Source: an uncultured Schlesneria sp. (GTDB lineage Bacteria; Planctomycetota; Planctomycetia; Planctomycetales; Planctomycetaceae). From it: 60,774 bases of DNA. A program made the translations under genes and the position numbers. Below the pieces are notes generated by a model, which was not told the DNA's origin, searched no databases, and was given only the letters and a program-made list of their open reading frames with translations. The DNA lies in assembly GCA_903834925.1 (NCBI GenBank), contig CAILLA010000086.1:1-60774 (forward strand), written 5' to 3'. This document shows positions 7,490 to 36,893 of the stretch, piece after piece (the stretch's first letter is position 1; each line of letters begins with the position of its first letter).

Positions 7490-7542
7490 CTGGAAAAGTT
7501 GCTCAGCACGATCATTTGTCGTGTTTGCAGGAGGTGTGAGCA

Positions 7543-9986: not shown

Positions 9987-10006
9987 TTGAACCGTAGATC
10001 CAAATT

Positions 10007-10031
10007 GGGGGGGTCACTTTGTGCCACCCCC
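10007..10031 (+). terminator. Possible terminator between rpmB and gatC
   Basis: A G-run followed by GTCAC, then TTT, then GTGCCACCCCC folds into a GC-rich hairpin just after rpmB, followed by TCATTT. The T-run is poor, so termination is uncertain. Confidence 0.35.
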
Positions 10032-10046
10032 TCATTTCGTCTTTGA

Positions 10047-10352
10047 ATGAGACCATCAATGGAACTCTCACGGGATGTCGTGCGTAAAGTTGCCGACTTG
10101 GCACGCCTGAAGGTGTCCGAGGACGAGTTGGATTCGCTCGTCACTGATCTGAGTGCCATGATTGGGTACGTACAGGTGTTGAACGAGGTCGACACGACCG
10201 ATGTGGCACCGATGGTTCACGCGGTTGAACTGCACAATGTGCTGAGAAGCGATTCGATTGTTGAATCTCTTCCACGTGCCGAGGCGCTATCGAACGCACC
10301 CCGTTCGGACGGCAGCTATTTTCTCGTGCCAGCAATCATCGACAGCGAATGA
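10047..10352 (+). CDS. gatC: Asp-tRNA(Asn)/Glu-tRNA(Gln) amidotransferase subunit C
   Basis: About 101 residues (97 if the ATG at 10059 is used). It matches GatC: VRKVADLARLKVSEDELDSL, then LNEVDTTDVAPMVH, and LRSD with a final YFLVPAII. GatC stabilises the GatAB amidotransferase that converts Glu-tRNA(Gln) or Asp-tRNA(Asn) in the cytoplasm. gatA and gatB are not in this window, so the subunit genes are dispersed or lie elsewhere. Confidence 0.92.
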   Translation: MRPSMELSRDVVRKVADLARLKVSEDELDSLVTDLSAMIGYVQVLNEVDTTDVAPMVHAVELHNVLRSDSIVESLPRAEALSNAPRSDGSYFLVPAIIDSE

Positions 10353-10429
10353 TGCCTCGGGTTTGTCAGAGACGCCGCTTGACTCGCTTCTCTTCGAGGC
10401 GCGGTTAAACGATTTATCTTCGAAATGCG

Positions 10430-10639
10430 CTACGCGACGCGGCGACCCGTATCGGGTCGCGAAACCAGTCGGTCAGCAGGCTTTTCTGGAACGTTGACCC
10501 AGAAGAAGACCCGGAAAAGATAGCAGCAGCGATGACACCGCGCGGATTTCGTCAAAAACCCAAAGAGACCGGAATTCCCGCTTGAACTCAAATAGACGTC
10601 ATTTGTCTTGCACTGTGGACAACGCATACTCGACCCCAC
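10430..10639 (-). CDS. Small zinc-ribbon protein
   Basis: 69 residues (65 from the internal ATG at 10627). MRCPQC and ARCHRC provide two CxxC pairs about 25 residues apart, a classic zinc ribbon. The second is followed by an aromatic-rich segment YLFRVFFW. It is probably a real small gene because the cysteine layout is unlikely by chance, but I recognise no family with a known role. It is convergent with gatC. Confidence 0.5.
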   Translation of the reverse strand: MGSSMRCPQCKTNDVYLSSSGNSGLFGFLTKSARCHRCCYLFRVFFWVNVPEKPADRLVSRPDTGRRVA

Positions 10640-10797
10640 GCGAGAATATCAGTTCATATCTCTTGGCAGACCTGGCACGAACTGGCCTTGTCTGGTGGTT
10701 TTGTAGTTTGATCAACGTTGTCTGAAAACCCCAGTTTTTGCGTCTCGTCCGGCCCAAGGATGTCAGTTTTATCATTCGAAAATGACAGGCCAAAAAC

Positions 10798-10858
10798 CGT
10801 AGCAGCGGCTTCCAGACGCAGAGCGAAAATTCGTGCGGAGGCTGGAAGCCTCCGCTAC
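10798..10858. repeat. Imperfect palindromic repeat
   Basis: CGTAGCAGCGGCTTCCAG (10798-10815) faces GGAGGCTGGAAGCCTCCG and GCTAC (10837-10858), with an internal hairpin GGAGGCT/AGCCTCC. It lies between the zinc-ribbon and STAS genes. It resembles the dispersed palindromes common in planctomycete intergenic DNA, but only one copy is seen here. Confidence 0.5.
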
Positions 10859-10878
10859 AAAAAATGATCGCTTTCCGC

Positions 10879-11325
10879 TCATACGGATTGGCTGGAAAGA
10901 CAGCTTTCAGCGACTGGCTCGGGAATGACAAGTGATTCGGTCGGTTCGAGGATCAGCTCGAACAAGCCCTCGTCATTCAGTTTAAAGAATTGACGGAACC
11001 AGAGCATTCTTTGGACGTTTGGTTGCGGAGGTGTTAATGCAAACCGCGTCCCACACTTCTCTTGCCAGTCGAATAACATCCCAAAAAATCCGCTGGGGAT
11101 GTACTTCACGTACAGCATGTCGATGGCGATCGAATCGCAGCCTTCCTCGTCAATCAGACGAAACAGGCCTTCACGCAGCAGGGCTAAATCGGCGCCGTCC
11201 CAGATTTCCATCTCGCCGAGATGGAGAAGAAGGAAATCATCCCGAACGTCGATCAGCATCCGTTTAAAGCGTCGCTGAGCTATCATGCATGGCCCTGTCG
11301 TGTCAATGTGTTGACCGAATGTCAT
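10879..11325 (-). CDS. STAS-domain-like protein
   Basis: 148 residues from the ATG at 11325 (an alternative ATG lies at 11286). The core runs from RMLIDVRDDFLLLHL through DSIAIDMLYVKYIPSGFFGML to RMLWFRQFFKLND. This is the strand-helix order of STAS (anti-sigma-factor antagonist) domains. The usual phospho-serine after the S-x-G motif appears as SGFFGML. It could regulate a partner-switching system, but no anti-sigma kinase or phosphatase gene adjoins it. Neither candidate start has a clear ribosome binding site. Confidence 0.55.
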   Translation of the reverse strand: MTFGQHIDTTGPCMIAQRRFKRMLIDVRDDFLLLHLGEMEIWDGADLALLREGLFRLIDEEGCDSIAIDMLYVKYIPSGFFGMLFDWQEKCGTRFALTPPQPNVQRMLWFRQFFKLNDEGLFELILEPTESLVIPEPVAESCLSSQSV

Positions 11326-11558
11326 CTCGAAAATCAGATCTTTCGAGCACGAACACTCCGTAACGCAAACACCGGGCCGACGAAAGAAATTGTCAAAAGT
11401 TGAGTCCGAATTAGATCGCAACTCTAGAAAAAGCAACACCTTGCAGCAATCCTGACAACCGATCAAGACTTGCCATAGCTTCATTAACGTTGATATTTAA
11501 CAACGTGGTGAACAGGCAACGTGGCGAGACGGCATCATTCGAAACGGATTTTTTAGCT

Positions 11559-11617
11559 CGTAGCATGGGCTTTAGCCCGTGCAATTCCTAATTGCACGGG
11601 CTAAAGCCCATGCTACG
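11559..11617. repeat. Perfect palindrome, 28-bp arms
   Basis: Arms 11559-11586 and 11590-11617 are perfect reverse complements with a 3-base centre. Each arm contains GCATGGGCTTTAGCCCGTGC, itself a smaller hairpin. It sits between the STAS gene and the coiled-coil zinc-ribbon gene, where both transcripts read leftward, so it could act as a terminator. A related diverged copy lies at 54819-54877. Confidence 0.85.
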
Positions 11618-11648
11618 ATTCGGACGTTTTCCTGCCCTGAAAAATTCA

Positions 11649-12353
11649 TTAATCTTCATCAGGAACGTACATCAATCGTCCGCAGGTACAAAACCGAGTC
11701 TTGCCGGCTCGAAGTTCAAGATAGACTTGAGTGGTGAGGGAAACGTAACAGGAACTGCACGACTTGTTGACGACGGGGGCAAGTGCGTCTGAGCCGTAGG
11801 CCTGCACAAGTCGGCGGTACTGAGGAACCAGATCTGGTGGCAGAACCTTTTCGGCTTCAGCGACTTCGACCTCTAATGCAGCGGCACTCGCTTTCAGTCC
11901 CGCCTCTTTTGCCTGGACCTCAGCAGTCAAGACTTGTAGTTCCTTCTCGATTGCAACGATGTCGATTTCCACCTTCTTGGCGTCGATCTGAACGGCGTCG
12001 ACCTTTTCAAGAGCTTCCAGGATTTCGTCCTCGAGTACGCTCTTCGCCATCGTGTCCGCTGCAATTTGCGAACGCAATGCTTCGTATTCGCGATTATTGG
12101 CGGCCGAGTTCAACTTACCGGACAAGTCATAAATTCGACTTTCGCTCGTTTTCAGTTGCAGGTTCTTGGTATCTGCAGCCACCTTCATCTGCTTCAGCTT
12201 GTTGCGCTGTGCTTCGAGTTCTTCTCTTTTCTTCTCGATCAATTGCTTTCGTGCGGCAATCTGCCGCGGTCCTTTTTCCAACTGATCGGAAATCTCACGC
12301 AGCTTTATCCGCAAGTCATGCAACTGTTTCATGCCAGCTGAAGTCGAACTCAT
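11649..12353 (-). CDS. Coiled-coil protein with C4 zinc ribbon
   Basis: 234 residues. A long coiled coil (about 10-170) is followed by a C-terminal zinc ribbon with CSSC and CTC-type cysteines (KSCSSCYVSL ... RFCTCGRLMY). This is the widespread bacterial C4-type zinc ribbon family (CT398-like, formerly DUF164), thought to bind nucleic acid or act as an adaptor; no firm function is known. The start is supported by GAGGAGAG about 8 bases upstream of the ATG. Confidence 0.8.
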   Translation of the reverse strand: MSSTSAGMKQLHDLRIKLREISDQLEKGPRQIAARKQLIEKKREELEAQRNKLKQMKVAADTKNLQLKTSESRIYDLSGKLNSAANNREYEALRSQIAADTMAKSVLEDEILEALEKVDAVQIDAKKVEIDIVAIEKELQVLTAEVQAKEAGLKASAAALEVEVAEAEKVLPPDLVPQYRRLVQAYGSDALAPVVNKSCSSCYVSLTTQVYLELRAGKTRFCTCGRLMYVPDED

Positions 12354-23839: not shown

Positions 23840-24043
23840 TTACGGAAGTGGTTGTTTGAGTTGTTGGGAGTTTTGAGTATCAGGCTGGACTGAGTCGTCC
23901 AAGGTCACGATGTAGATCAGCATGGACGTCAGCATTAGCGATAATGCGACCCAGAATTTCCAGTCGTGGTGGGCTCGCTTCCAGTAAGGCAGGTTCTCTA
24001 TGTACCGTTCATGTTGGTCGGGATGATGTTTGGTATGGGTCAT
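23840..24043 (-). CDS. Small single-pass membrane protein at end of kai-xfp operon
   Basis: 67 residues. A His-rich N-terminus ([14 protein letters not shown]) is followed by [15 protein letters not shown] and one membrane segment (about 31-48, [16 protein letters not shown]), then a short polar tail. The ATG at 24043 has GGAAGGAAA 4-5 bases upstream and overlaps the phosphoketolase stop by 4 bases, so translation is coupled. I have no named family. Tight coupling to xfp suggests a membrane partner or regulator of that enzyme, which is inference. Confidence 0.7.
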
Positions 24044-26535
24044 GGGTTTCCTTCCAAAAATTGGTTGGGGACGGGTGTTGGTTGTGTTGGTGGGGCGGTC
24101 CATTTCCAGTTCCGAATCTCTGGCATGTCCTCGCCGTATTTGTCGATGTATTGCTTGTGTTCGAGCAATTTTTCCTTGAGTTGTGCTTTCAGATAGATCC
24201 CCTTGGCTCCGGTCTGAGGAAGTCGGTCGATCGTGTCGATCACCAGATGAAACCGGTCGAGGTTATTCAACACGGTCATATCAAAGGCGGTCGTGATGGT
24301 TCCTTCTTCCTTGTAGCCCCGGACGTGGATGTTGTTATGGTTGGTTCTTCGATAAGTCAGTCTGTGAATCAACCAAGGGTAGGCATGGAATGCGAAAATC
24401 ACTGGCCTGTCTTTGGTAAACAGGTCGTCGAAGTCGCGATCACTTAAGCCGTGAGGGTGTTCGGACTGTGGTTGCAGTTTCATCAGATCAACGACATTGA
24501 CCACGCGGATTTTCAGGTGAGGCAAATGCTCACGCATGATTGAGACTGCGGCGAGTGTCTCAAGCGTGGGGACGTCGCCACAGCAGGCCATCACGACATC
24601 GGGCGTCACCCCTTGATCATTGCTGGCCCATTGCCAGACACCGATCCCTTGAATGCAATGCTTTACGGCCGCTTCCATCGTCAACCACTGCGGCGACGGG
24701 TGCTTCCCCGCGATCACGACGTTGACGTAATGACGGCTGCGCAGGCAATGGTCCATCACCGACAAGAGGCAATTCGCATCCGGCGGCAGATAGACCCGGA
24801 CAATTTCGGCTTTCTTATTCACAACCAGATCGATGAATCCCGGGTCCTGATGCGTAAACCCGTTGTGGTCCTGGCGCCAGACGTGGGACGAGAGCAGATA
24901 ATTCAATGACGCGATCTTCCGACGCCACGGCAATTGAGCCGATACCTTCAGCCATTTGGCATGCTGGTTGAACATTGAGTCGACGATGTGGATGAAGGCT
25001 TCGTAGCAGTTGAATAATCCGTGTCGACCGGTCAGAAGGTAACCTTCCAGCCAGCCCTCGCACTGGTGTTCGCTGAGCATTTCCATCACGCGACCTTCCG
25101 GCGCGAGAAACTCGTCATTGGGAACCGTTTCGGCGTCCCATTGGCGCTGTGTTGTTTCAAACAGGGCTTCCAGACCGTTGGAAAGCGTTTCATCCGGGCC
25201 AAACACTCGGAAATTCCGCTGGGATTGATTCAGCTTCGTCACGTCTCGCAGAAACTTGCCCAGGACGTGTGTGTCGCCGATGCCGGGGATGCCCGGTGTG
25301 GCGACCTCAACGGCGTAGTCTCGAAAATCGGGCATACGCAGGTCCCGCAGCAGGCTGCCGCCGTTGGCATGAGGGTTCGAACCCATGCGGCGCTGGCCCA
25401 CTGGTGCCAGTTCGGCTAGCTCCTGATTCAAACGGCCCTGGTCATCGAACAGTTCTTCGGGACGGTAATTTTGTAGCCATTCTTCCAGCAATTCGAGATG
25501 TCCCGGATGGTTGGCAGGGGCTGAGATGGGAACCTGATGCGATCGAAAAGTTCCTTCGATCTGGCGACCATCAACGATTTTTGGTCCTGTCCAGCCTTTG
25601 GGCGAATTCAACACAATCATCGGCCAGCGAGGACGCGGAAAGGATGAAGGATGAGGGATGAAGGATGAATCAGAATCTTGTCCTGTCTTTTTTTCATCCT
25701 TCATCCTTCTGCCTTCATCCTTCGCTTCACGCGCTTCGCGCTGAATCGATTGGATCTGTTGCACGACTTTGTCGAGTGTCGTTGCCATCGCCTCATGCAT
25801 CAGGTCGGGTTCGTGACCTTCCACGAAATAGGGTGTCCATCCATAGCCTCGGAGTAGCTGTTCCAATTCTTCTCGTGGGATTCGGGCGAGCACCGTCGGG
25901 TTAGCAATTTTGTAGCCATTGAGGTGCAGGATCGGCAGGACTGCACCGTCCGTGGCAGGATCGAGGAACTTATTAGAATGCCAGGCTGTGGCTAATGGCC
26001 CCGTTTCCGCTTCGCCGTCGCCGACCACACAAGCGACAATCAGATCGGGGTTATCGAACACCGCTCCGAAGGAATGACTGAGTGAATAACCCAGCTCGCC
26101 CCCTTCGTGAATCGATCCGGGACATTCAGGCGATGCATGGCTGGGGATACCACCGGGAAATGAAAACTGAAGAAACAACTTCCGTAGTCCCGCTTCATCC
26201 TGGCTGATGTTGGGATAGATCTCGCTGTAGGTCCCTTCGAGATACGTATTGGCGACGACAGCGGGGCCGCCATGCCCTGGTCCCGATACGTAGATCATGT
26301 CGAGGTCATATTGTTTGATGACTCGATTCAAGTGGGCATAGATAAAGTTTTGACCGGGCGTCGTCCCCCAATGCCCGAGCAGCATCCGTTTCACATCGGC
26401 GAGAGCCAACGGCCGTTTCAATAACGGGTTGTCGTAAAGGTAGATCTGTCCGACCGAAAGATAATTGGCGGCTCGCCAATACGCGTCGATTTTGTGAAGC
26501 AGATCCGGTGTCAGTGTCATATTGTTGATTTTCAA
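24040..26535 (-). CDS. xfp: Xylulose-5-phosphate/fructose-6-phosphate phosphoketolase
   Basis: An 831-residue thiamine-diphosphate enzyme that cleaves xylulose 5-phosphate (and often fructose 6-phosphate) with phosphate to acetyl phosphate plus a shorter sugar phosphate. Typical blocks are [31 protein letters not shown], the ThDP region [48 protein letters not shown] and [17 protein letters not shown]. Known family members are about 790-825 residues. The excess is an in-frame insertion of about 30 residues (about 270-300) made by a palindromic DNA repeat. It is the sixth gene of the kai operon, 30 bases after the response regulator. The start may instead be the ATG at 26520. Confidence 0.95.
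25640..25722. repeat. GGATGAA palindrome inserted in frame in xfp
   Basis: Arms 25640-25669 and 25693-25722 are 30 bases each, built from GGATGAA units, and complementary except at three positions, with a 23-base loop. On the coding strand it adds an Asp/Glu/Lys-rich run and then [10 protein letters not shown] just before PRPRWPMIV. Such GGATGAA/TTCATCC palindromes are usually intergenic, so this looks like an in-frame insertion tolerated in a surface loop. Confidence 0.8.
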
Positions 26536-26565
26536 ACAGTGGTGAAGGAACGCCGAATCAAGCCG

Positions 26566-27420
26566 TTACTCAAAACGGGGTTCGGCGGCGAGGGAGAACA
26601 GCACGACTTCTTCCCCCGTCACGGTACTGATGTCGTGGTGCATGCTGACCGCTTTGACGCCAGTGACTTCGTGGATCAGCGATTCCAACATCGGACGTGC
26701 CAGTTCCAGCAACTGCGTTCTGACCTCTTTGATCAAATCACGTCCTTTGGCCGGAACGGACGCTGTCCCCAGTTGTCGTTCTGCTTGAGTCAGTGTTCCA
26801 TGGGCCCGCACAATCAGCAGGTCTTTAATGAAATGAGCGTGGATTTGTTCGGATGTCCAACCCATGTACTCTTGTTGAAAACGCCGCACTCCCAGACTGA
26901 TGGCCGCTTCGCATTCAATGCGTGTCAATGTTTTTGATTTGCGTTCCGCCCGAATCCGTCTCGCTTCATCGATTGACAATCGTTTTTCATTGCCAGGATT
27001 GTCAGGTAAAGTCGCGGGACCTGGGGGTCGGATCTTGTCACTGACGTTGACGCTGGCCAGAATTTCTTTCATTGCAGCGAGGGCGACCGGCTTGACGATC
27101 AACGCATCGAACCCGGCCTTCATGGCCAGTGCTGCATGTTCAGGGTCTTTATGGCCCGTGACTGCGACCAGTTTCGTATGAGCAAAATCGGGCAATTCTC
27201 GAAATCGTTTGGCGAGACGACAGCCATCCATGTCTGGCATCACCAGATCGACAAGCAACAAATCGGCTCGAAAAACTGCTGCGACGGCGAGAGCCTGAGT
27301 TCCGCTGTAGGTGACGTGGACTTGATTACCGAGTGCTTCCACGAGCATCCCTAATGCGTCGGCACCATCGCGATTGTCATCTACGATCAGAACTCGAATC
27401 GACTTTCCGGTTTTCGTCAT
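26566..27420 (-). CDS. Response regulator receiver fused to MpsC (DUF2294) domain
   Basis: 284 residues. An N-terminal receiver domain (about 8-122) has VLIVDDN, phospho-acceptor Asp in LLLVDLVMPDMDG, T in VAVTGH and K in LIVKPV. After a charged linker, residues about 165-284 match DUF2294/MpsC: EAAISLGVRRFQQEY, HFIKDLLIVRAHGTLTQAER, RPMLESLIHEVTGVKAV. MpsC was named from a sodium-translocating system that generates membrane potential; its precise action is unclear. The ATG at 27420 follows GAAGGAG and lies 4 bases after the kinase stop. It is the likely phosphorelay partner of that kinase. Confidence 0.85.
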   Translation of the reverse strand: MTKTGKSIRVLIVDDNRDGADALGMLVEALGNQVHVTYSGTQALAVAAVFRADLLLVDLVMPDMDGCRLAKRFRELPDFAHTKLVAVTGHKDPEHAALAMKAGFDALIVKPVALAAMKEILASVNVSDKIRPPGPATLPDNPGNEKRLSIDEARRIRAERKSKTLTRIECEAAISLGVRRFQQEYMGWTSEQIHAHFIKDLLIVRAHGTLTQAERQLGTASVPAKGRDLIKEVRTQLLELARPMLESLIHEVTGVKAVSMHHDISTVTGEEVVLFSLAAEPRFE

Positions 27421-27424
27421 GGGC

Positions 27425-29680
27425 TTACTCCTTCCCCGAGTCCGTGGATTGTCTCTTTTCGGACGCGGCAGCAAGAATCTCGTTCAGTTTTACAAAGTCG
27501 GGCGGCTTGACCAGATGGTGGTCAAAACCCGAATCGTGCGATCGTTTTCGGTCAGAGTCCTGTCCATACCCGGTCATCGCGACAAGGACGACGTCTTTAA
27601 AAATGGCCTGTTGTCGTAGCCTTGTGGCAACTTCATATCCATCCATTCCTGGTAATCCGATATCCAGAAGGACGACATTCGGACGAAAGTCGAGCGCCGC
27701 ATCTAATGTTGATGGGCCATCATGAACCGTTAACACCTCGTGTCCCGACGCGAGCAGCAGCATTCCTAACATTTGGGCCGCGTCGGCGTTATCGTCCACG
27801 ACCAGGATTTTTAAGGATGTACCGTTAAATTTCGAAGTGACGACGTGCGATTCGAGGCATTGTATTTCCGACTGGGGCATTAATGGAAGACGCACGATAA
27901 ATTCGCTGCCGCAGCCAAGTACGCTTTGTACTTCGACTTTGCCTTCGTGCATTTCGACAATTCTCTGGACAAGAGCCAATCCAATTCCCAACCCACCTTG
28001 CGATCGGTCAAGCGAGTGTTCAGCCTGGGTAAACAGGTCGAAGACATGGGGCAGCAATTCTTGTGCGATCCCAATGCCCGTGTCCCGAACGCGTATCACA
28101 GCAAATTGCGTGGCGTGCGATTTCGGGCTTGCGAGGGATGAATGAGACTTTGGCAGATCGCTGCTCACCTCTTCCCACTCCCCATTCTCAGTAAGGCATT
28201 CCCTCGTCACGACGACGTGAATGTGGCCACCGTCATGAGTAAACTTTGCGGCGTTCGACAGCAGGTTCACGACAACCTGTTCAAGCCGTGCCGCGTCCGC
28301 GAAAAGTTGGATTGGTTGCTGAGCAATCGACAATGTGAGACTGTGTTTGTGTCGGTCAATCAACGGACGAACGCTTTCGATGGCATTCGTCACGACTTCG
28401 TTCAGCAGGATTGGTTCTTGTTGCAAGTGGATTCTGCCGGTCGTAATTCGAGAGACTTCCAGCAAATCGTCAATCAGCCGGGTCAATTGCCCCACTTGAC
28501 GTTCGATGATCGTGCGAGCCTGGTGTTGCAGCCGATCTTCATTCTTTTGCAATCCCAAGAGTTGCAGGGCGCTTGCAATGGGAGAGAGCGGATTGCGAAG
28601 TTCGTGGCTGAGCATGGCCAGAAATTCGTCCTTGCGACGGTGCAGTTCCTCTAAAGATGCCGATTGTTCCTGCATCCGTTTTTCCAGCCGGTTACGCTCG
28701 GCTTCCAATCGGCTGCGCTCGGTGATATCGCGGATGTTGCACTGAATGACGCTATGGTCGTCTTCTTTATACGAGTTTGCGACAATTTCGACTTCAACTC
28801 GTTCCCCCAGACTCGTTTCCAGCGGCAAGTGTTCGAAACGAATGTAGCCTTGCTCTTGCAATTCGCGGACTGCGGCTTCATTTGCCGACCGGTCGCTGAA
28901 CAATCCAATTTCCCAGAGCTCCTTGCCGGAGAAATATTCTTTCGAGTACCCCAAGAGTTCGCTCATATAGGGATTCGCGTCCGTGATTCTTCCCGTGTGA
29001 GTATCGAGAATCAGGATTCCGTCTTTGGCCGTTTCGAAAAGCCTGCGATAACGAATTTCTGATCCTCGAAGCGCCAATTTCGAGACGACCAGTTCATCGT
29101 AAGTCTTCTGATGACTAAGGTCCGTGACCAGCAAACAAACCCTTTGTAATGGCAACATAAACAGGGCGAGCGATGCGGGGAACCATGTTCCGTTTTGCCG
29201 GTTCAGCTGAACCTCTTGATGAGCCGCCACTGGTGGTTTTCCAGGGACCCCCGCTCCATCAACCATTGGAATTTTTGTGGCAACGACAATGTCAAGCTCC
29301 TCAAAAGTTGGCGAATTCTCAACATCGTGCAACATTTCCGCCCAACGGACGGAATCGGTTTCGCAGACAAATCTGTCGAGCGACCTTCCAATCAGCGTCT
29401 CGCTGGACGACGCGAACAGATCGGCGAAGCAGGGATTGCAGTAGAGGATCATCCCTTCCTGATTTAACACGGCGACACCCTGCTGCATCGCTTCGATCAA
29501 CAGTCGATAGGGACGGTCTGCTCCTTCCAACGTGTAAACGTTTTCGCCGGGATTGGAGACGACAACGGCATCGACAATCCCGTTGCGAATGGCATCGACG
29601 ATTGCATCGGCTTCTTCGAGGCGCCAATGAAGCCGCTCATTTTCTTCGAGAAGTTCGTGATATGTCTTGGGGGTGATCAT
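27425..29680 (-). CDS. Hybrid sensor histidine kinase, PAS-PAS-HisKA-HATPase-REC
   Basis: 751 residues with no obvious membrane segment, so cytoplasmic. A short N-terminal coiled coil is followed by a PAS domain (about 55-165), a second PAS with PAC (about 210-325), and HisKA with the phospho-His in AMLSHELRNPLSPI. The ATPase domain has NLLSNAAKF, DTGIGI and GGLGIGLALV. A C-terminal receiver has ILVVDDNADAA and VVLLDIGLPGMDGYE. It lies between kaiB and the response-regulator gene in one transcription unit, so it is the natural reader of KaiBC state. This recalls KaiB-binding clock kinases, but here the input domains are PAS. Confidence 0.92.
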   Translation of the reverse strand: MITPKTYHELLEENERLHWRLEEADAIVDAIRNGIVDAVVVSNPGENVYTLEGADRPYRLLIEAMQQGVAVLNQEGMILYCNPCFADLFASSSETLIGRSLDRFVCETDSVRWAEMLHDVENSPTFEELDIVVATKIPMVDGAGVPGKPPVAAHQEVQLNRQNGTWFPASLALFMLPLQRVCLLVTDLSHQKTYDELVVSKLALRGSEIRYRRLFETAKDGILILDTHTGRITDANPYMSELLGYSKEYFSGKELWEIGLFSDRSANEAAVRELQEQGYIRFEHLPLETSLGERVEVEIVANSYKEDDHSVIQCNIRDITERSRLEAERNRLEKRMQEQSASLEELHRRKDEFLAMLSHELRNPLSPIASALQLLGLQKNEDRLQHQARTIIERQVGQLTRLIDDLLEVSRITTGRIHLQQEPILLNEVVTNAIESVRPLIDRHKHSLTLSIAQQPIQLFADAARLEQVVVNLLSNAAKFTHDGGHIHVVVTRECLTENGEWEEVSSDLPKSHSSLASPKSHATQFAVIRVRDTGIGIAQELLPHVFDLFTQAEHSLDRSQGGLGIGLALVQRIVEMHEGKVEVQSVLGCGSEFIVRLPLMPQSEIQCLESHVVTSKFNGTSLKILVVDDNADAAQMLGMLLLASGHEVLTVHDGPSTLDAALDFRPNVVLLDIGLPGMDGYEVATRLRQQAIFKDVVLVAMTGYGQDSDRKRSHDSGFDHHLVKPPDFVKLNEILAAASEKRQSTDSGKE

Positions 29681-29710
29681 CGTGTGTGCTCAGAAATGGC
29701 GAGGAATGGT

Positions 29711-30058
29711 CTAAACGATGATGTTCAAGCCAAGAAAGATCTTTTTTTCGTCAGACAGGTCTCCGATGAATAAACGCTTCGGTGACGGAGACTGTTTGAT
29801 CAACGTCGGGGCAACAATGATCTGGGCTTGTCGCGCCATTTCCGGGTAGACAAATAGATCGATAACAGTCAGTTCATAACGTCCTACCAGATAGCGATCA
29901 CAAATCCGTTGGATCCGTTCGACGGCAAGGGTCGAACGAGGCGATAGACCGGCGATATAGAGACATAGCACGAAGTATTCGTTCGGGACGGACCCCGACG
30001 TGACACCGACCGTGTCCGTCGTCACGTTATCCGTTGCTTTTGTCTTTTTGCTTTTCAC
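29711..30058 (-). CDS. kaiB: KaiB-like protein 1
   Basis: 115 residues. After about 25 variable residues it matches KaiB: FVLCLYIAGLSPRSTLAVERI, YELTVIDLFVYPEMAR, IIVAPTLIK and a final FIGDLSDEKK. KaiB switches folds and binds phosphorylated KaiC in the cyanobacterial clock. The start is GTG at 30058 with AAGGCGAAA upstream. It is 9 bases after the second kaiB. Only modest identity is visible between the two copies, so their roles may differ. Confidence 0.88.
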   Translation of the reverse strand: MKSKKTKATDNVTTDTVGVTSGSVPNEYFVLCLYIAGLSPRSTLAVERIQRICDRYLVGRYELTVIDLFVYPEMARQAQIIVAPTLIKQSPSPKRLFIGDLSDEKKIFLGLNIIV

Positions 30059-30067
30059 ACTTTCGCC

Positions 30068-30406
30068 TTATTCCTTCATTTTCAATCCCGAACGCAACTG
30101 CAAGCCGACCAGCGTTCGTTCTGTGTCGGAAAGATCGCCAATGATTTTGCGAATCGGTTCAGGTAATTTTCGCACGAGAGTCGGAATCGCCACGATCTGA
30201 TCGTCCTTTGCCAGGCGGGGATTAGCGATCAGATCAACCACTTCGATCTCGAACTCACCGGCCAGGTATTCCTCGCAAATTCGTTTGAGATTCGCGAATG
30301 CCGCGACAGACTTAGGTGTTTGCCCAGCAACGTACAAGCGAAGTTGCCATTGCTTCGGAGTTTCCGTTTGTATTGAATGGCCATTCGACGCGGACTCCCT
30401 GTTCAT
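30068..30406 (-). CDS. kaiB: KaiB-like protein 2
   Basis: 112 residues with the same thioredoxin-like KaiB pattern: [52 protein letters not shown] and [10 protein letters not shown]. Its ATG overlaps the kaiC stop by 4 bases (30403-30406), giving translational coupling to kaiC. Having two kaiB genes after one kaiC is common outside cyanobacteria. No kaiA is present anywhere in the window. Confidence 0.9.
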
Positions 30407-32148
30407 TTGCGAACTTTCTTTTGGCTTCCCGGCGACCCGTTTGATTCGGCTTTACGGCTGAACGCCATTTCCTGACGACTCTGTTCCAACTTTTTTAAAT
30501 ACACCTGCTCAGTGGTGATATCGCGTTCCATCTCTTCCTTATCAGTCTGGAATTGCAATTGAAGAACCGCGATTTGTGCTTCCAGCGCTTGTTGCCTGCG
30601 GGAAAGTTCGCCCCGTTTTCGTTCGATTTCCTGATTACGCTGTGCTGCTGTTGCCATTTCCTTCGCCTCCTGAGCCAGGCGGGCAGAACCTGTCAGTACG
30701 CCGTCGGGCCCCAGATAGACATCCGTCAGCAGAATTCCTTGATCAGTTAAAAGAAACTCTCGAATCTGGTTACTATGAGACATGCCACGCGACTTGAGGA
30801 TATACAGCCCCCGATTACGCTCACCGTTCAGTTCGATGTCCCGTAAAAGTAGCCAGGTGTCAATCAGCGACGAGATATCGAGTTCCGTCTGCTCCAAAGC
30901 CCCTCCGTTTCGGTTGAGATTTGTCAGCAGCGTCGTAATCTGCCTGGCCTTCAAATAATCGACCAGCCGCATCATCATGGAACTTGCCTCAGAGACCGTT
31001 CCCGACGAAATGAAGTTGGTAATGGGATCGACGATGACAAGAGAAGGCTGAAATTCCTCAACCAACTTGTGAATGCTCGCCAGATGCATTTCCAATCCGT
31101 TCATCGTTGGTCGAGCGGCGTGAAAACGAAGAAGTCCCTTCTTCACCCACAGTTCCAGATTGAGACCGATCGAACGCATGTTTCGCAGCAGTTGGGCTTC
31201 TGATTCTTCGAAAGCAATGTAAAGGCATCGTTCGCCCCGACGACAACAAGCATCGGCGGCATGGCATGCGAGACTGGTTTTTCCAACTCCTGCAGTGCCG
31301 GAAAGCAAAACGCTGCTGCCACGAAAAACACCCTCTCCGCCCAGCATGGCATCCAGCGCGGGAACACCGATCGAAACCCGTTCGGTCGACGCTTCGTGTT
31401 GTAGTTGAAGGGATGTGATCGGGAAGACCGAAATACCTCCTTCGTCAATCAAGAATGGAAACTCGTTGGTGCCGTGTGATGAACCTCGATATTTGACGAT
31501 CCGTAAACGGCGGGTCGAGATCTGACCGTCGACGCGATGGTCCAATAACAACACGCAGTCAGAAACGTACTCTTCCAAACCATGCCGCGTGAACGTGCCG
31601 CTGCCCCGTTCAGCCGTAATGATCGCCGTCACACCTTTTTCCTTGAGCCAACGGAATAAGCGGCGAAGTTCGGAACGTAGAATCGCAACGTTTGAAAGAC
31701 CCGCGAACAGGGTTTCAAGGGAGTCGAGGACAATCCGTTTTGCACCGATGGAATCGATGGCATAGCCCAGGCGGATGAACAGTCCCTCCAGGTCGTATTC
31801 ACCGGTCTCTTCAATCTCATTTCTCTCGATATGAATGTAGTCGACTGCCAGCTTCTTTTGTTCGATCAATCCTTCAAGATCGAAGCCGAGCGAACGAACA
31901 TTTTGAGCGAGTTCTTCTGCTGTCTCTTCGAACGCAATAAACACACCCGGTTCGTCAAACAGTGTGGCTCCCCTGACGAGAAACTCGACCCCGAGCAGAG
32001 TCTTGCCACAACCTGCACTGCCACACACCAGCGTCGGTCTCCCTTTGGGCAACCCGCCGCTGGTAATCTCATCCAGCCCCTGAATGCCCGTAGTACATTT
32101 CGGCAAACCTGGTGGTGCCGAATTTTTTTTTCCGACAGTCTTGGAAAT
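30403..32148 (-). CDS. kaiC: KaiC-family double-RecA ATPase
   Basis: About 581 residues with two RecA-like domains. CI has GSAGCGKT and the paired glutamates [11 protein letters not shown] has GTAGVGKT and AFEESEAQ. The cyanobacterial autophosphorylation region (S431/T432) appears as DISSLIDT, so two Ser can accept phosphate. The last about 70 residues are a Gln/Glu-rich coiled coil ([17 protein letters not shown]) where the cyanobacterial A-loop tail would be. The longest ATG/GTG/TTG frame starts at TTG 32106, which has no ribosome binding site. An ATT at 32148, in frame, has AAAGGA exactly 7 bases upstream and gives a plausible N-terminus, [14 protein letters not shown]. It heads the operon kaiC-kaiB-kaiB-kinase-regulator-xfp-membrane protein. 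Confidence 0.85.
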
Positions 32149-32164
32149 AAGGCGTTCCTTTAAA

Positions 32165-32215
32165 CAAAAAAAGCCGACGTGGTCGCCCCCGTAAGGGATT
32201 CGACCACGTCGGCTT
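32165..32215 (-). promoter_or_regulatory. Terminator-like leader hairpin of kaiC
   Basis: In the kaiC direction a perfect 15-bp stem (AAGCCGACGTGGTCG with CGACCACGTCGGCTT, 32171-32215) is followed by seven T, then GTTTAAAGGA, the kaiC ribosome binding site. A standard intrinsic terminator right before a start region suggests attenuation or processing. The outer 11 bp of the stem are identical to the hairpin before the BON gene (36791-36836). Confidence 0.7.
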
Positions 32216-32225
32216 ATTCATTGAC

Positions 32226-32252
32226 GAGCCACCCGAAATGAACGGGCGGCTC
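32226..32252 (-). promoter_or_regulatory. Second hairpin in kaiC leader
   Basis: GAGCCGCCCG and CGGGTGGCTC (minus strand) pair over 10 bp with one G-U and a 7-base loop. It pairs fully only as minus-strand RNA (the plus strand would have an A-C mismatch), which supports transcription towards kaiC. It lies 10 bases upstream of the terminator-like hairpin. Confidence 0.5.
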
Positions 32253-32347
32253 TTCATTTAATCTTCCGAGCACGGTAAAGACTATACGCCTTGTATCAGG
32301 CAAAGGCAATCCGAATCCGGTGCAACACAGTAAATCAGTAAATCAAT

Positions 32348-33457
32348 TCAACGTGACAAACTCGTGACCGCATGATCTTGAATCCGGCCCCTGGCGTGAA
32401 ACGTCACCGGCAGATTTCGGCCACGGATCGTGACCATAAACGTTTCGTCAAACATGCCCGCTTCGTTGAGAGGCGTGAATGTCAGCCGCAGCATGTGAAC
32501 CTGAGTAACGCCGGATGCAAATTCGGTTTTGAAAGCGTCGATTGGATCGATTGGCGATGACTCGATTGGATTGGCAGCCTTCAGTTGAGCGTTTTCACGT
32601 GGCACTGCCTTCCCTTTTCCGTCGCGAGCAATCCGTTCGAATGTCTCGATTTCAAAGGCTTTTTTGCCTCGCAAAATCACGGTGATCGACTTCGAGTCAC
32701 CAATCGTCACTGAGCCAAACTGAGCATCCGTCACAACGATGTCGTCCTCAACGCGCGCTTCGACGGAGATCGCGATTTCCGAGCCACCAACCTCGTTCGT
32801 GGTGAGGATCAAGCGATCTCGGAGAACTCCGACCGAAGCATCGGGTTTCAATTCTACGACGACATCGTATTGTATCGTTCCATTACTTCGAGCTTTTTCC
32901 ACGATTTGGGTTGTCAAATAAGAGCTGTCCACTTTGGCTGATAAAATCTTCCAGTCCGCTCGTCCCTTGTAAGTGACCGAAATTCGTTGTGTGTAACCGG
33001 TTCCCAGGTCAACGGTACCAAAGGCCACAGAACTCGGTCTGACTTCGAAATCGTCTCGAATCCGGCCTTCGACCGGCAGCGTCACAGTCGACGACAGTCC
33101 TTTGATGGGTTCAAGCAAACCCACGATCGCTTTGACTCGTTTGTCCCCGACATGGCGAACCGTATCCAGGCGGATCGTCAAGACTCGCTCAGCCCGGGAC
33201 GCAATTGAAACTGGTGCTTGGTCCGTCCAGGAAATGCATCCGCATGAAGTGGTCAGGCTGGTTATCCGAATTTCTTCTGCGAACGGGTTTTTGACAGTCA
33301 CTGTGAAGGTGGTGTCCGCCAGCCTGGCCACGGTGCCAAATTTGATTTGCAACCGGTCGAACATCTTCTCGCCCCATTCCTCGGCCATGATCGGTCGAGA
33401 CAACATCGTGAGGACAAACAGAGAAGCGACACATTTTCCGTAACAGTGAGTTTTCAT
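32348..33457 (-). CDS. Exported DUF1573 protein, copy 3
   Basis: 369 residues with a signal peptide ending PIMAEE, then WGEKMFDRLQIKFGTVAR, and the SCGC pair in TTSCGCISW. It is colinear with the genes at 6428 and 7543 but carries an insertion of about 25 residues near residue 285 (around AANPIESSPIDPIDAF). Lying between the DksA-like gene and kaiC, it is the only member of the stress block without an evident stress role. Confidence 0.8.
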   Translation of the reverse strand: MKTHCYGKCVASLFVLTMLSRPIMAEEWGEKMFDRLQIKFGTVARLADTTFTVTVKNPFAEEIRITSLTTSCGCISWTDQAPVSIASRAERVLTIRLDTVRHVGDKRVKAIVGLLEPIKGLSSTVTLPVEGRIRDDFEVRPSSVAFGTVDLGTGYTQRISVTYKGRADWKILSAKVDSSYLTTQIVEKARSNGTIQYDVVVELKPDASVGVLRDRLILTTNEVGGSEIAISVEARVEDDIVVTDAQFGSVTIGDSKSITVILRGKKAFEIETFERIARDGKGKAVPRENAQLKAANPIESSPIDPIDAFKTEFASGVTQVHMLRLTFTPLNEAGMFDETFMVTIRGRNLPVTFHARGRIQDHAVTSLSR

Positions 33458-33559
33458 TTTCCAAAGCCATTACCCGATTTCGGGGTTTGAAAATCCTGAC
33501 GCAGCTGCGTCGAAATGCAAGAAAGTCGACTGGGGAGATCATCAAAGTCTGGATGGACT

Positions 33560-33961
33560 TCATTGCCAGCGGTGTCGTGGCTCGCCATGTACGGGCCTTT
33601 CAATCGAGACACGTTCTTTTCGTGCGCAATCAATGCAGTGCGCCGCATACGGAACGGCCCTGAGACGTGGTGTGGCAATCATTTTTCCGCACAACTGGCA
33701 AACGCCGTAGGTTCCCACTGGAATCCGTTCAATTGCCGCTTCGACCTGCTCTAGCAGTCGCTCTTCATTTTGAGCGATGGCAACCTGGACGTCGAAGCCC
33801 TCAACGTCTGCGTCGGCAGGATGAGTCGGCAAACTGGAAATGTCTCCTGCCTTGACCACATCCTCACGCAAGGACTCTTCCGCCGAATCCACTTCATGGA
33901 TCAGTCGTTTGCGTAACGTATCCAATTGCAACGCAAAACCTGATTGTCTCTTTTGGTTCAT
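33560..33961 (-). CDS. DksA/TraR-type zinc-finger protein
   Basis: 133 residues. An acidic helical N-terminus is followed by VEAAIERIPVGTYGVCQLCG and then CIDCAR, the four-cysteine zinc finger of the DksA/TraR family. Such proteins act in the RNA-polymerase secondary channel, often together with ppGpp in the stringent response. The usual DksA coiled-coil tip acidic pair cannot be assigned with certainty, so it may be a short DksA-like regulator. AGGA precedes the ATG. Its leader shares a block with the BON gene. Confidence 0.8.
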   Translation of the reverse strand: MNQKRQSGFALQLDTLRKRLIHEVDSAEESLREDVVKAGDISSLPTHPADADVEGFDVQVAIAQNEERLLEQVEAAIERIPVGTYGVCQLCGKMIATPRLRAVPYAAHCIDCARKERVSIERPVHGEPRHRWQ

Positions 33962-33990
33962 TTGTCTGTTCCTGGAAAGCTTAGGTAACC

Positions 33991-34034
33991 GGCACCCGAT
34001 GACTCGGATTGCCTTTCACGGTGTCGTCCAACGA
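33991..34034 (-). promoter_or_regulatory. Shared leader block of DksA-like gene
   Basis: In gene direction the block reads TCGTTGGACGACACCGTGAA then AGGCA, followed by a small hairpin (TCCGAGTCATCGGG). The 25 bases TCGTTGGACGACA..AGGCA match 22 of 25 at the BON leader (36848-36893). GTCGT-TGG-ACGAC is itself a short hairpin. Confidence 0.5.
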
Positions 34035-34050
34035 CTTGTTCTCAACTGAT

Positions 34051-34075
34051 GTGTAAGAACACGGGGTTCTTACAC
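34051..34075 (-). terminator. Hairpin after tspO
   Basis: GTGTAAGAAC (34051-34060) pairs perfectly with GTTCTTACAC (34066-34075), loop ACGGG. It lies 10 bases after the tspO stop and upstream of the DksA-like leader block. No T-run follows. A hairpin at the equivalent place is found upstream of the BON gene (36908-36934), so it may belong to the leader instead. Confidence 0.4.
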
Positions 34076-34085
34076 CGGCTGGCAT

Positions 34086-34595
34086 TTAAGGGTTCAAATG
34101 CCACATAGTAAAATTCAGTACGGCGGCAAAGCTGACCCAGGCCAGATAGGGAATCAGTAAATTCCCGGCACGCTGGTTGACTCGATAGAAGCAAACCACT
34201 GTCGCCGCGAGTGCCAGCCAGAGCATCAAAATCTCTGCGAAGGCAAATCCAATAAGGTGTGCCCCGAAGAACAGAGGCGTCCAAAGCACATTGAACAGCC
34301 ATTGAACCAGAAACAAGCTCAACGGCAAGGTTTGAGTTTTCCAGCCCCCTTCTCGCCACACCAGCCACGCCGCGACCCCCATCATGATGTAGAGCAACGT
34401 CCAAACCGGACCAAAGATCCACGCGGGCGGATTCCACTCGGGCTTATGCAGGCTGGCGTACCAATCACCGGTCGAAACGAAGACTGCTGTACCGGACGCA
34501 CTAAGACACAATACCAGCCACAGAATCAGGGCAATTGTCTGATGACCTGGCGGTGTTAATGTCGTCTTGTCCGTTGTTTGTGTGATAGTACTCAA
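34086..34595 (-). CDS. tspO: TspO/MBR family membrane protein
   Basis: 169 residues with five membrane segments and family motifs WYASLHKPEWNPPAWIFGPVW, LVQWLFNVLWTPLFFG and the C-terminal YLAWVSFAAVLNFTMWHLN. TspO binds porphyrins and is linked to tetrapyrrole handling and oxygen or light stress. Two TTG codons are possible starts. The one at 34595 is preferred because AAGAGGAG lies 7 bases upstream, while the TTG at 34601 is too close. It is downstream of the Dps gene (gap about 50 bases). Confidence 0.92.
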   Translation of the reverse strand: MSTITQTTDKTTLTPPGHQTIALILWLVLCLSASGTAVFVSTGDWYASLHKPEWNPPAWIFGPVWTLLYIMMGVAAWLVWREGGWKTQTLPLSLFLVQWLFNVLWTPLFFGAHLIGFAFAEILMLWLALAATVVCFYRVNQRAGNLLIPYLAWVSFAAVLNFTMWHLNP

Positions 34596-34644
34596 ATTCA
34601 AACTCCTCTTGTTTCGGAACTTGACAGCGTTGCTTGGTTAGGCA

Positions 34645-35238
34645 TCACTCCTCAATGCAAATCGATTCACAAGGGACATGTTCGGCAAGAAACCAAACCT
34701 GCAATTCATTGGTCCGAAGGACATTCGAAATGAGAATGTCATTCGTCCCCATGTCACCATTCGCAGCGGAATCGCGGGCCATTGCCCTGGTTTCCAGCAG
34801 GATGACTTCATGCGCATGAAGCAGCCGTGCAATTTGCGTTGCTGTATTCTCGCGGCCTTTCGGAGCACGTGGAATCAAGGTCGCTTCCGCGACGTCGGGA
34901 GCCATTGCGATAGCAACACCACCCAGCGTCTGGACTCGTTCAGCAATCAGATCGACAAGTGCAGACTGCTCTTCGAAGTGCTTATCGAATAGCAAATGCA
35001 TTATATAGAACGTTGGTCCCGATGCTTGCCAGTGATGTTTCTTATACAGATCTCGCAGAGTCATGACGTCGGCCAGAAGCTGGTTCAAGTCATTGATACT
35101 GGAGGCTGCAACGGTTTCATCCAGGGCCAGCGGAGTCCTTCGTATCATGTGGAATGTTTGCGTTTCGCCTCGCTTCGAGGCAGTGATTGGCTCTTTCATA
35201 GGGAATGCACCATTTCGTGTAATGAGTGAGGACGACAT
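34645..35238 (-). CDS. dps: Dps-like ferritin (DNA protection during starvation)
   Basis: 197 residues (184 from the ATG at 35199). Dps motifs are LYKKHHWQASGPTFYIMHLLFDKHFEE, giving the ferroxidase ligands (His, His, Asp, Glu), followed by helices to the C-terminus. The family forms 12-subunit shells that oxidise and store iron using hydrogen peroxide and protect DNA. Neither start has a clear ribosome binding site. Its placement among stress genes fits starvation or oxidative response. Confidence 0.88.
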   Translation of the reverse strand: MSSSLITRNGAFPMKEPITASKRGETQTFHMIRRTPLALDETVAASSINDLNQLLADVMTLRDLYKKHHWQASGPTFYIMHLLFDKHFEEQSALVDLIAERVQTLGGVAIAMAPDVAEATLIPRAPKGRENTATQIARLLHAHEVILLETRAMARDSAANGDMGTNDILISNVLRTNELQVWFLAEHVPCESICIEE

Positions 35239-35302
35239 TGTTTAATTTCTACGTTTGACGCCGAGAAGCGGCTGAATTTGTCTTCGCAACCTATGGAGTA
35301 AC

Positions 35303-35333
35303 GGACATGACAAAGACTCTCCTTGTCCTGTCC
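35303..35333 (-). terminator. Hairpin between stress gene and dps
   Basis: GGACATGACAAAG faces CCTTGTCCTGTCC (11 of 13 positions pair), just after the stop of the 17M-like gene. No T-run follows, so terminator activity is uncertain. Confidence 0.3.
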
Positions 35334-35347
35334 ATTGAAACCACGTT

Positions 35348-35887
35348 TCAAGCGAGCACGGCAACAGGTTTCTGCACCATGTTGACCTCGGTTTTTGATG
35401 CTCCGGATGCTGTAAGAATCGACTTTGCCCGAGTCACTTCGTCCGGAGTCCCGTGAACGAGCATCATAAATTTTCCTGCTTTGATCGACGTCTCGTATTG
35501 CACGATGCTGTTTTCAGGAATTCCGATACTGGCCAGAGCCGCTCCGAGGGCACTCAATCCGCCAACAACGACGGCGCTTTCCAGGGCGGCGACGATCCAC
35601 GCGGCCATGGGACCAGCGACCAGCAATGGACCAAAACCCGGAATCATAAAGAATGCGGAACCGAACAGCAGGCTCCAGAACCCGCCCCAGAAGGCTCCCT
35701 GTTCGCCCCAATACAACATCCGATCACCGGCATTGTAATAACCGACTGCCTTTTCTTCGGTGTGATACCCCTTGCCGACAATCGATAAGTTTTTCATCTC
35801 GAAGCCGGCCTTTTGCAACTGTTTCACAGCCTCTTCGGCTTGTGTGTGTTTGTCAAACATCGCGACGACACAATTCAGGTGTTTCAT
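35348..35887 (-). CDS. General-stress protein 17M-like membrane protein
   Basis: 179 residues. The N-terminal half fits the heat-induced stress protein (YflT/GsiB-17M) fold: VVAMFDKHTQAEEAVKQLQKAGF. A glycine-rich hydrophobic region follows (FWGGFWSLLFGSAFF, FGPLLVAGPMAAWIVAALESAVV), then a ferredoxin-like C-terminus (GKFMMLVHGTPDEVTRAKSIL). Its role in stress is known only by association. It is the second gene of the stress block. Confidence 0.75.
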   Translation of the reverse strand: MKHLNCVVAMFDKHTQAEEAVKQLQKAGFEMKNLSIVGKGYHTEEKAVGYYNAGDRMLYWGEQGAFWGGFWSLLFGSAFFMIPGFGPLLVAGPMAAWIVAALESAVVVGGLSALGAALASIGIPENSIVQYETSIKAGKFMMLVHGTPDEVTRAKSILTASGASKTEVNMVQKPVAVLA

Positions 35888-35958
35888 ATTTTTTAGTTTT
35901 CTGTGAAAAATGATTAGCTGGACGCGAAAGTGCTACGCAGCTGTTCGATATAGCTCTT

Positions 35959-36059
35959 GTGCCACTGAATGACCGTCTTCGGTCACTCAGTGTGTTTCGG
36001 TCGCGAGTTGGCAAGTCGGACAAGACACTGCGTCGGAGAAGACTCCGATGCAGTGGCAC
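35959..36059. repeat. BIME-like double-hairpin repeat (reverse orientation)
   Basis: Bounded by GTGCCAC and GTGGCAC, with the TGACCGTCTTCGGTCA hairpin first and the GTCGGAGAAGACTCCGA hairpin second, so it is inverted relative to the copies at 2804-3029. It sits between the 17M-like gene and the end of the BON gene. Confidence 0.85.
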
Positions 36060-36110
36060 TTCCGACCGATACTGGTATGACAAAAGCCATTCCACCGTTG
36101 CCCATTGCGA

Positions 36111-36764
36111 CTACAAAATGGCAAGGTTGTTCTGGACTTCGGTCACTCCTGGGGCACTCCACGCGGCTCTTCCCGCTTCGTCTCGCTCGTCCCAGGTGCG
36201 GATGGTCCCTGTCAATGTCACCTTGCCACCAATTGCTGAAACCGAAACGTGCTCGGCGTCAATTTCAGCATCACGTTTCAAAGCGCTTTCGATGGCCTCT
36301 TTGACCGCTGTTGCCTGAACCTTTGGCTTCAGCGTGATATTGTTTGTGACCCCTTTCACGCCCGAAAGATAGGAGACAGCGCTGACTGCGGAATTCTGTT
36401 CGAACCCGAATGTGACGGCACCGGTTAGTGTCACCCAGCCCTTTTCGATGGTCGCCTGGATGCCGCTCGGCACCCACACGTGCCATTTCAGTGAATTCGC
36501 CACGGCTTCGGCGATTTCGGTATCGGCATGGTTGCGGTCATCCGTCAGTTTGACGTCCAACTCCTCGGCGATCGCCTTGACGCCATCCACTCGCTGGGTC
36601 GCCCGTTCCGCTGCTCCTTTTTCGGCATAATGCGGAACTGTGCCACTGAGTGTCACAACGCCATTATGCGTCGCGACGTTTACGTTAGTCGCCGTCAGGG
36701 ATGATTCCCAACGCAGTTCCTGCAGCACGTCTTGCTTCAACTGTTCGTCTGTTTTCATTTTCAT
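36111..36764 (-). CDS. Triple-BON-domain protein (OsmY-like)
   Basis: 217 residues from the ATG at 36764 (an ATG at 36758 is also possible). Three BON domains, about 5-70, 80-148 and 152-217, each contain V-T-L-(S/T)-G-(T/A) ([27 protein letters not shown]). BON domains bind phospholipid. OsmY has two and is induced by osmotic stress. No signal peptide is evident, so it may be cytoplasmic. The longer open frame upstream only translates the leader hairpin. Confidence 0.85.
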
Positions 36765-36783
36765 ACCGATCTCGCCTATGGCG

Positions 36784-36836
36784 AAAAAAAAAGCCGACGT
36801 GCTGAACGCCGAATTGGCGTTCAATCACGTCGGCTT
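36784..36836 (-). promoter_or_regulatory. Terminator-like leader hairpin of BON gene
   Basis: In gene direction AAGCCGACGTG pairs with CACGTCGGCTT (11 bp), topped by TGAACGCC/GGCGTTCA (8 bp), followed by nine T. It ends 20 bases before the ATG. The base stem is identical to that before kaiC, while the upper stem differs, which points to conserved use rather than chance. Confidence 0.7.
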
Positions 36837-36847
36837 ACTCTGCAACA

Positions 36848-36893
36848 GGCCCGCCGGCTGTCCGGTGTGCCTTTTACTTTGTCGTCCAACGAA
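36848..36893 (-). promoter_or_regulatory. Shared leader block of BON gene
   Basis: In gene direction it reads TCGTTGGACGACAAAGTAAA then AGGCA, followed by a hairpin (CACCGGACAGCCGGCGGG). The first 25 bases differ from the DksA-like leader (33991-34034) at only three positions. A further hairpin (TGTGCG/CGCACA, 36908-36934) lies just upstream, as in the DksA-like region. Confidence 0.5.

Follow-up and report, generated by a model that had tools for sequence, protein, structure and literature searches.

The window analysed here, the 60,774 nucleotides (nt) of contig 86 of an uncultured Schlesneria sp. genome (assembly of 9.0 Mb, 307 contigs), carries a kai operon on its minus strand, in which kaiC and two kaiB genes precede genes for a hybrid kinase, a response regulator with an MpsC output domain (REC-MpsC), a phosphoketolase (xfp) and a 67-residue protein. 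The locus raises the question of how such an operon is controlled and to which other genes it is tied. An RNA directly upstream of kaiC offers an answer: judged from sequence, the kai operon is probably one member of a stress regulon whose units share a leader RNA with a terminator/antiterminator switch, and into which the operon's own signalling proteins would feed.

In the gap 5′ of kaiC, a promoter-like site precedes two hairpins, and a U-tract follows the latter hairpin near the start codon. These hairpins belong to a leader RNA at 32164-32270 that is absent from the sequence-only reading preceding this analysis. Its elements are as follows.

32164-32270, minus strand: leader RNA of the kai operon, 107 nt, terminator/antiterminator candidate (covariance model, 113 bits; covariation)
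32260-32269, minus strand: 5′ strand of helix P0, UCGG AAG AUU (covariation)
32222-32256, minus strand: hairpin P1 (alignment and covariation)
32209-32218, minus strand: 3′ strand of P0, AAU AAG CCGA, which shares bases with the 5′ terminator arm (covariation and folding)
32171-32215, minus strand: terminator hairpin P2, then a U-tract (alignment and covariation)

The terminator ends 15 nt before the kaiC start. Ten more planctomycete loci carry the same leader RNA 5′ of kaiC and were aligned with the window using MAFFT (11 sequences); a weaker match was obtained in locus L022 (48.5 bits). In the relatives the RNA is located 58 to 282 nt 5′ of the position equivalent to TTG 32106. Across the 11 kai loci, 94.7% of the P1 and P2 cells were paired, and 12 pairs showed two-sided changes compared to 6.0 in shuffled alignments, a value reached by none of 500 shuffles; the covariation of the two hairpins also far exceeded that of slid controls. 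Within the family, 13 of the 18 genomes with a close kaiC have the leader directly 5′ of this gene. No Rfam family reached its gathering score in the window, the best matches in the leader region scoring 13 to 21.5 bits against cut-offs of 55 to 166. The complementary strand of the RNA scores with the model as well (32116-32222 and 36744-36843, plus strand) because the terminator is nearly symmetric; these matches were not counted as copies. In the loci L011 to L013, a possible reading frame of ~50 codons was seen by eye between leader and kaiC.

P0 is formed by leader bases 2 to 11 with the linker and the 5′ arm of the terminator, and has a 3 × 3 internal loop of A·G, N·A and G·A. As P0 uses bases of the lower terminator stem, it and the complete P2 are mutually exclusive. 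P0 played no part in building the covariance model and was examined in a larger alignment, in which 3 of the 89 rows are wrong-strand or cut; these were kept for P0 covariation and folding and removed for the tree. In the 85 distinct rows, 94.8% of the P0 cells were paired (slid controls, 17 to 48%), with 25 two-sided cells compared to 5.7 in shuffles (0 of 500 reaching this number). One P0 pair is CG in 64 rows, UA in 20 and AU in one, is broken in none, and requires six changes on a tree built without its own columns. In folding calculations, at least four of the seven P0 pairs formed in 81 of the 85 transcripts ending 3 nt past P0. The full kai leader folded as the terminator, with −59.7 kcal/mol compared to −49.7 kcal/mol when P0 was enforced, and in growing kai transcripts, at the lengths tested, P0 and P1 persisted up to 92 nt, P0 was partial at 96 nt, and the terminator had formed at 100 nt. 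The leader has two traits of attenuation leaders, a 5′ position before same-strand genes and a covarying alternative helix excluding the terminator. As far as sequence and predicted folding go, P0 and P2 are arranged in an attenuator design, for which we infer the outcome of each state: the kai genes would form one transcription unit starting with the conserved leader, P0 and P1 would fold first in the emerging transcript, and the 3′ arm of P2 would then displace P0 to form the terminator just before kaiC. A factor holding P0 would allow the polymerase to read through, so that the P0-held state would be ON.

The leader is not confined to the kai locus. Copy numbers are lower bounds, since each scan scored a limited number of candidates (22 per genome for the family, 9 for the phylum and 150 for the window's own genome); many contigs are short, and statements that no RNA was found refer to the fetched stretch. 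The own genome gave 51 covariance-model matches at an E value of 0.01 or better, many of which are weaker complementary-strand echoes. Of the 27 places inspected, one is the kai copy, one (contig C81) is probably false, and the other 25 are further copies; two weaker places were found in addition (C212:448 and C304:51814). An island of ten copies plus a weaker one lies at ~31 to 95 kb of contig C304 (L170 to L173), and on C190 and C304 several copies are arranged as divergent pairs. Of the 170 family genomes, 57 had a match at 0.01, 51 of these at 1e-6. The RNA was detected in 13 of 392 genomes in the thinner scan of the phylum, and in 13 of a set of 40 genomes centred on a member of a different family. 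Outside the Planctomycetes the model was applied to kai loci only; among the 71 kai loci L018 to L088, only L022 and L023, both planctomycetes, matched at 0.01. Of 44 RNA copies, 35 share their strand with the nearest downstream gene (7 do not, and 2 are at a contig edge); for the nearest upstream gene the orientation was the same in 22 copies and opposite in 18, with 4 at an edge.

The genes following these copies suggest what the regulon might comprise. A further copy with its genes lies upstream of the kai operon in the window itself.

36784-36890, minus strand: second leader RNA copy (covariance model, 69 bits)
32348-36824, minus strand: stress-type genes behind the second copy, encoding BON, YflT, ferritin-like, TspO, DksA/TraR finger and DUF1573 proteins (Pfam)

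Elsewhere, the RNA is followed by genes for double Usp, SpoIIAA-like, receiver and MCRA-family proteins, PAS hybrid kinases and class I aldolase, and also for DUF308, PRC-barrel, ice-binding-like, DUF4142, FtsX-type and chalcone-synthase-like proteins; several of the tested proteins had no Pfam match. Many of the genes behind RNA copies, but not all, are of the stress type. With the same leader at ~25 further places in the genome, the kai operon would belong to a stress regulon led by this RNA.

The gene most closely associated with the RNA is mpsC. For this analysis the 150 listed family places of the RNA and 128 MpsC matches were used, the last few weak matches being left out. Among the 170 family genomes, 51 contained the RNA, 61 contained mpsC and 42 contained both, compared to 18.3 expected. 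In 18 of the 39 genomes with listed copies, mpsC is divergent from the RNA at a distance of 131 to 531 nt, and in 11 genomes a listed copy leads mpsC within 1.5 kb. Of 12 loci from other families, 9 have mpsC at most 1.5 kb from the best RNA match, several with one divergent and one led mpsC gene. Seen from this gene association, REC-MpsC is a candidate effector acting on the leader RNA. The hybrid kinase would receive information on time or the ATP/ADP state from KaiC and the KaiB proteins and would phosphorylate REC-MpsC; MpsC would be the likeliest protein to act on the leader, a step that is the boldest of the proposal and is drawn from genomic association. The kai operon would then be autoregulated within the regulon, with KaiC/KaiB, the kinase and REC-MpsC feeding a signal in. 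The strictest form of this idea, in which a KaiC/KaiB timer signals through the kinase to REC-MpsC, and MpsC is an unrecognised RNA-binding antiterminator rather than a DNA-binding regulator, opening ~25 leaders and that of kai itself in a feedback loop, we consider tentative and rather unlikely as a whole.

Several results weigh against the proposed regulon and its MpsC step. The promoter scan gave four sites compared to 6.8 in shuffles, fewer than expected by chance, and the promoter-like site 5′ of the leader is proposed from its conservation in L009 and L017 as judged by visual inspection. The leader was not found 5′ of kaiC in 5 of the 18 family genomes with a close kaiC (G005, G077, G078, G131, G135), and within the 11 kai leaders alone the covariation of P0 was weak, its number of two-sided pairs being matched by 189 of 500 shuffles. 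The Fisher counts of RNA and mpsC co-occurrence ignore phylogeny. Nine of the 51 RNA-bearing family genomes had no MpsC match, five of which are 93 to 100% complete (G139, G142, G008, G134, G085), so that MpsC is not an obligatory factor everywhere, and comparison of the MpsC fold gave no informative match. With respect to xfp, no RNA was present in the fetched stretch at 22 of 26 loci outside the window's own clade (two G045 fragments taken as one), and the co-occurrence of RNA and xfp in the 170 genomes was not significant (21 compared to 16.5 expected, p 0.08).

A factor other than MpsC is the core of one alternative: the leader might be a riboswitch in which P0 and P1 bind a small molecule or ion signalling stress or the energy state, MpsC being merely a frequent member of the regulon. 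The conserved internal loop of P0 and its overlap with the terminator are aptamer-like, and the nine RNA-bearing genomes without MpsC would be accounted for; however, the apical part of P1 is variable, few unpaired bases are conserved, and the tight association with mpsC would be left unexplained. We regard a riboswitch as unlikely. Still more doubtful is the idea that the copies are independent small RNAs of one family that act in trans, and that the genes behind them use their own promoters. Each copy does carry a strong terminator at its end, and the distance to some downstream genes is at least 200 nt. However, most copies have same-strand genes close behind them, the kaiC start follows the terminator at only 15 nt, and regulated termination is the only setting in which a covarying alternative helix makes sense. 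That the locus is a mere local operon, in which chance placed xfp after the kai genes and the RNA simply terminates transcription of the upstream DUF1573 gene, fits the confinement of the xfp linkage to one clade and the same-strand orientation of that gene, but is very improbable because conserved P1 and P0 precede the terminator, and the RNA occurs at ~25 places of the genome, across families and before kaiC behind quite different upstream genes. The RNA part of this explanation is already largely refuted; its xfp part is possible.

The genes of the kai operon are the following.

30403-32148, minus strand: kaiC, probable ATT start, TTG 32106 as alternative (Pfam and starts of relatives)
30068-30406, minus strand: first kaiB (Pfam KaiB)
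29711-30058, minus strand: second, more divergent kaiB (Pfam KaiB)
27425-29680, minus strand: hybrid kinase, PAS-PAS-HisKA-HATPase-REC with the receiver at the C terminus (Pfam)
26566-27420, minus strand: REC-MpsC response regulator with MpsC output domain (Pfam)
24040-26520 (ATG; TTG at 26535), minus strand: xfp, phosphoketolase, a lineage-specific member (Pfam)
23840-24043, minus strand: 67-residue protein with a single hydrophobic stretch (adjoins xfp also in L009, L017 and L099 to L101)

kaiC and kaiB overlap in ATGA, followed by gaps of 9 nt between the kaiB genes, 30 nt before the kinase gene, about 4 nt before the REC-MpsC gene and 30 to 45 nt before xfp, which overlaps the gene of the 67-residue protein in ATGA. 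The Pfam scores were 360 bits for KaiC (PF06745, two stretches), 96 and 70 bits for the KaiB copies, 98 bits for MpsC and 76 bits for Response_reg in REC-MpsC, and 576 bits for XFP_N in xfp. Gene calls, junctions and Pfam matches confirm the seven genes, their order and the short gaps or overlaps that had been read from the sequence, and as a predicted gene arrangement the seven-gene minus-strand operon exists. Approximately 30 residues of xfp (24040-26535), near 270 to 298, are unmatched in many family copies and look like an in-frame insertion.

The kaiC codon at 32148 is ATT in the window, and the equivalent codon is ATT in L009 and L017, ATC in L011, TTG in L010 and L012 to L015, and ATG in L016, L018, L019, L022 and L023. 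As relatives carry one of these four codons at this position, the start at 32148 is probably right. A rare start codon directly 3′ of a terminator suggests tight control of KaiC synthesis.

KaiC itself had 8DBA as its top PDB match (phmmer, E 6e-193, residues 3 to 540), with 8FWI and 8DB3 also among the closest structures; all three are presumably those of Rhodobacter sphaeroides, annotated in PDB as 'Circadian clock protein KaiC'. The alignment with 8dba_A reaches residue 540, whereas other full-length KaiC chains stop at ~462 to 497, indicating a C-terminal extension. In the second KaiC domain, the Ser-Ser site DISSLID is aligned to GLSSLMD of 8dba and to EE in 8fwi. As predicted from these alignments, the window KaiC has the tested traits of the 8DBA type, namely two ATPase domains, a C-terminal extension and two adjacent phosphorylatable residues.

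Conservation of the operon was analyzed in the best 80 of 219 candidate stretches encoding a KaiC relative. kaiB follows kaiC in 77 of these 80 loci, and 61 have two kaiB genes. A related kinase encoded on the same strand at a distance of up to 5 kb was found in 31 of the 80 loci, and in 26 of the 59 having at least 4.5 kb of downstream sequence, numbers in which distant kinases would be missed, the window's own kinase being the query. MpsC is present in five loci (L009, L012, L014, L016, L017) and xfp in three (L009, L017, and L036, where it is 5′ of kaiC). A signalling unit of KaiC/KaiB, kinase and MpsC, as suggested by the sequence-only reading, is thus reasonable, with the link to kaiB in 77 of 80, to the kinase in 26 of 59 and to MpsC in 5 of 80. 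Because REC-MpsC is present in L012, L014 and L016, whose KaiC is 80 to 84% identical, its position behind the kinase gene appears to be older than that of xfp. The REC-MpsC of L017 (14603-15442) is 68% identical to that of the window, compared to 94 to 95% for kaiC and xfp; this regulator seems to have been exchanged.

The same reading had placed xfp in one transcript with the Kai sensor and the relay, and had named recurrence of the kaiC-xfp linkage in relatives as a check. KaiC matches at E 1e-60 were found in 22 of the 170 family genomes, 18 of which are close (~60% identity or more) and four of which have 36 to 39%. The linkage does recur, but in a single clade with ~94% identical KaiC, comprising 4 of the 18 close-kaiC genomes (G000, G143, G145, G146). 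In 8 of the 18, xfp is separated from kaiC, lying on a different contig or at a long distance (in G112, ~22 kb away on the same contig), and in 6 of the 18 it was not found. Since kaiC lies at a contig end in G077 and G113, which are among the eight, a linkage is possible there. By this distribution, xfp is best seen as a recent, local addition, and a stable place in the operon is not supported. Among the 26 other xfp loci, xfp lies 3′ of a same-strand RNA in three: directly in G045, in the order RNA-P-type ATPase-xfp-ackA in G113, and loosely, at ~7 kb, in G112. xfp would therein be a recently recruited passenger that is found in RNA-led units of a few other genomes, too. As far as gene positions indicate, it is the shared leader RNA that connects kai with mpsC, and in some cases with xfp, on a broader scale than the operon. 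In L226, the RNA is located behind xfp (1 of 26 loci). In L036, a Verrucomicrobia contig, xfp (4947-7523) lies ~2.5 kb upstream of kaiC (10001-11698) and is 84% identical to that of the window, compared to 62% for KaiC, which points to xfp transfer.

For KaiBC outside the cyanobacteria, an RNA common to kai and stress-type genes provides a concrete candidate regulon and a directly testable output. The MpsC/DUF2294 domain, for which we found no known function, would gain a candidate role, and planctomycetes would possess a multi-operon RNA switch. To our knowledge, there is little on RNA-based regulation in planctomycetes.

Our literature searches turned up no description of the leader RNA, the alignment of the Rhodopirellula-1 candidate motif lying outside the comparison. 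This motif is listed for Proteobacteria and Planctomycetes and marked as probably cis-regulatory in a table of 2010; compared by the table description only, it may or may not be the same RNA (PMC2864571). The domain of REC-MpsC shares its Pfam name, MpsC (PF10057), with the MpsC of the staphylococcal mpsABC locus, for which deletion of mpsC was reported to cause no phenotype (PMC6689103).

In BglG/SacY/LicT-type antiterminators, the RNA target RAT is an imperfect hairpin overlapping the 5′ arm of the terminator, as does P0. BglG/LicT systems have a protein with the CAT RNA-binding domain (CAT_RBD, PF03123), whereas none was found in the window's genome (0 matches; control positive in 4 of 14 genomes). 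The ANTAR domain (PF03861) likewise had 0 matches in the own genome, but the control search matched nowhere either.

KaiBC together with a kinase is already known (PMC3164672, PMC5520375). Outside cyanobacteria, a histidine kinase or a GGDEF/EAL protein is encoded directly 3′ of kaiC or kaiB; these contexts resemble the window in the downstream kinase, and MpsC, xfp and a leader RNA are not mentioned in the sections consulted (PMC3164672). Compared to the system of the 8DBA KaiC, the window has two kaiB genes, kaiC in first position, REC-MpsC, xfp and the leader RNA, a comparison that does not cover the R. sphaeroides genome itself. A related concept is ANTAR antitermination, in which a phosphorylation-controlled regulator such as EutV binds the leader RNAs of its regulon and prevents termination (PMC3369931). 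The idea is alike, but MpsC is not an ANTAR protein and its RNA binding is only proposed here; ANTAR leaders consist of two small hairpins with conserved loops, whereas the RNA of the window has P0 and P1 instead (PMC3369931).

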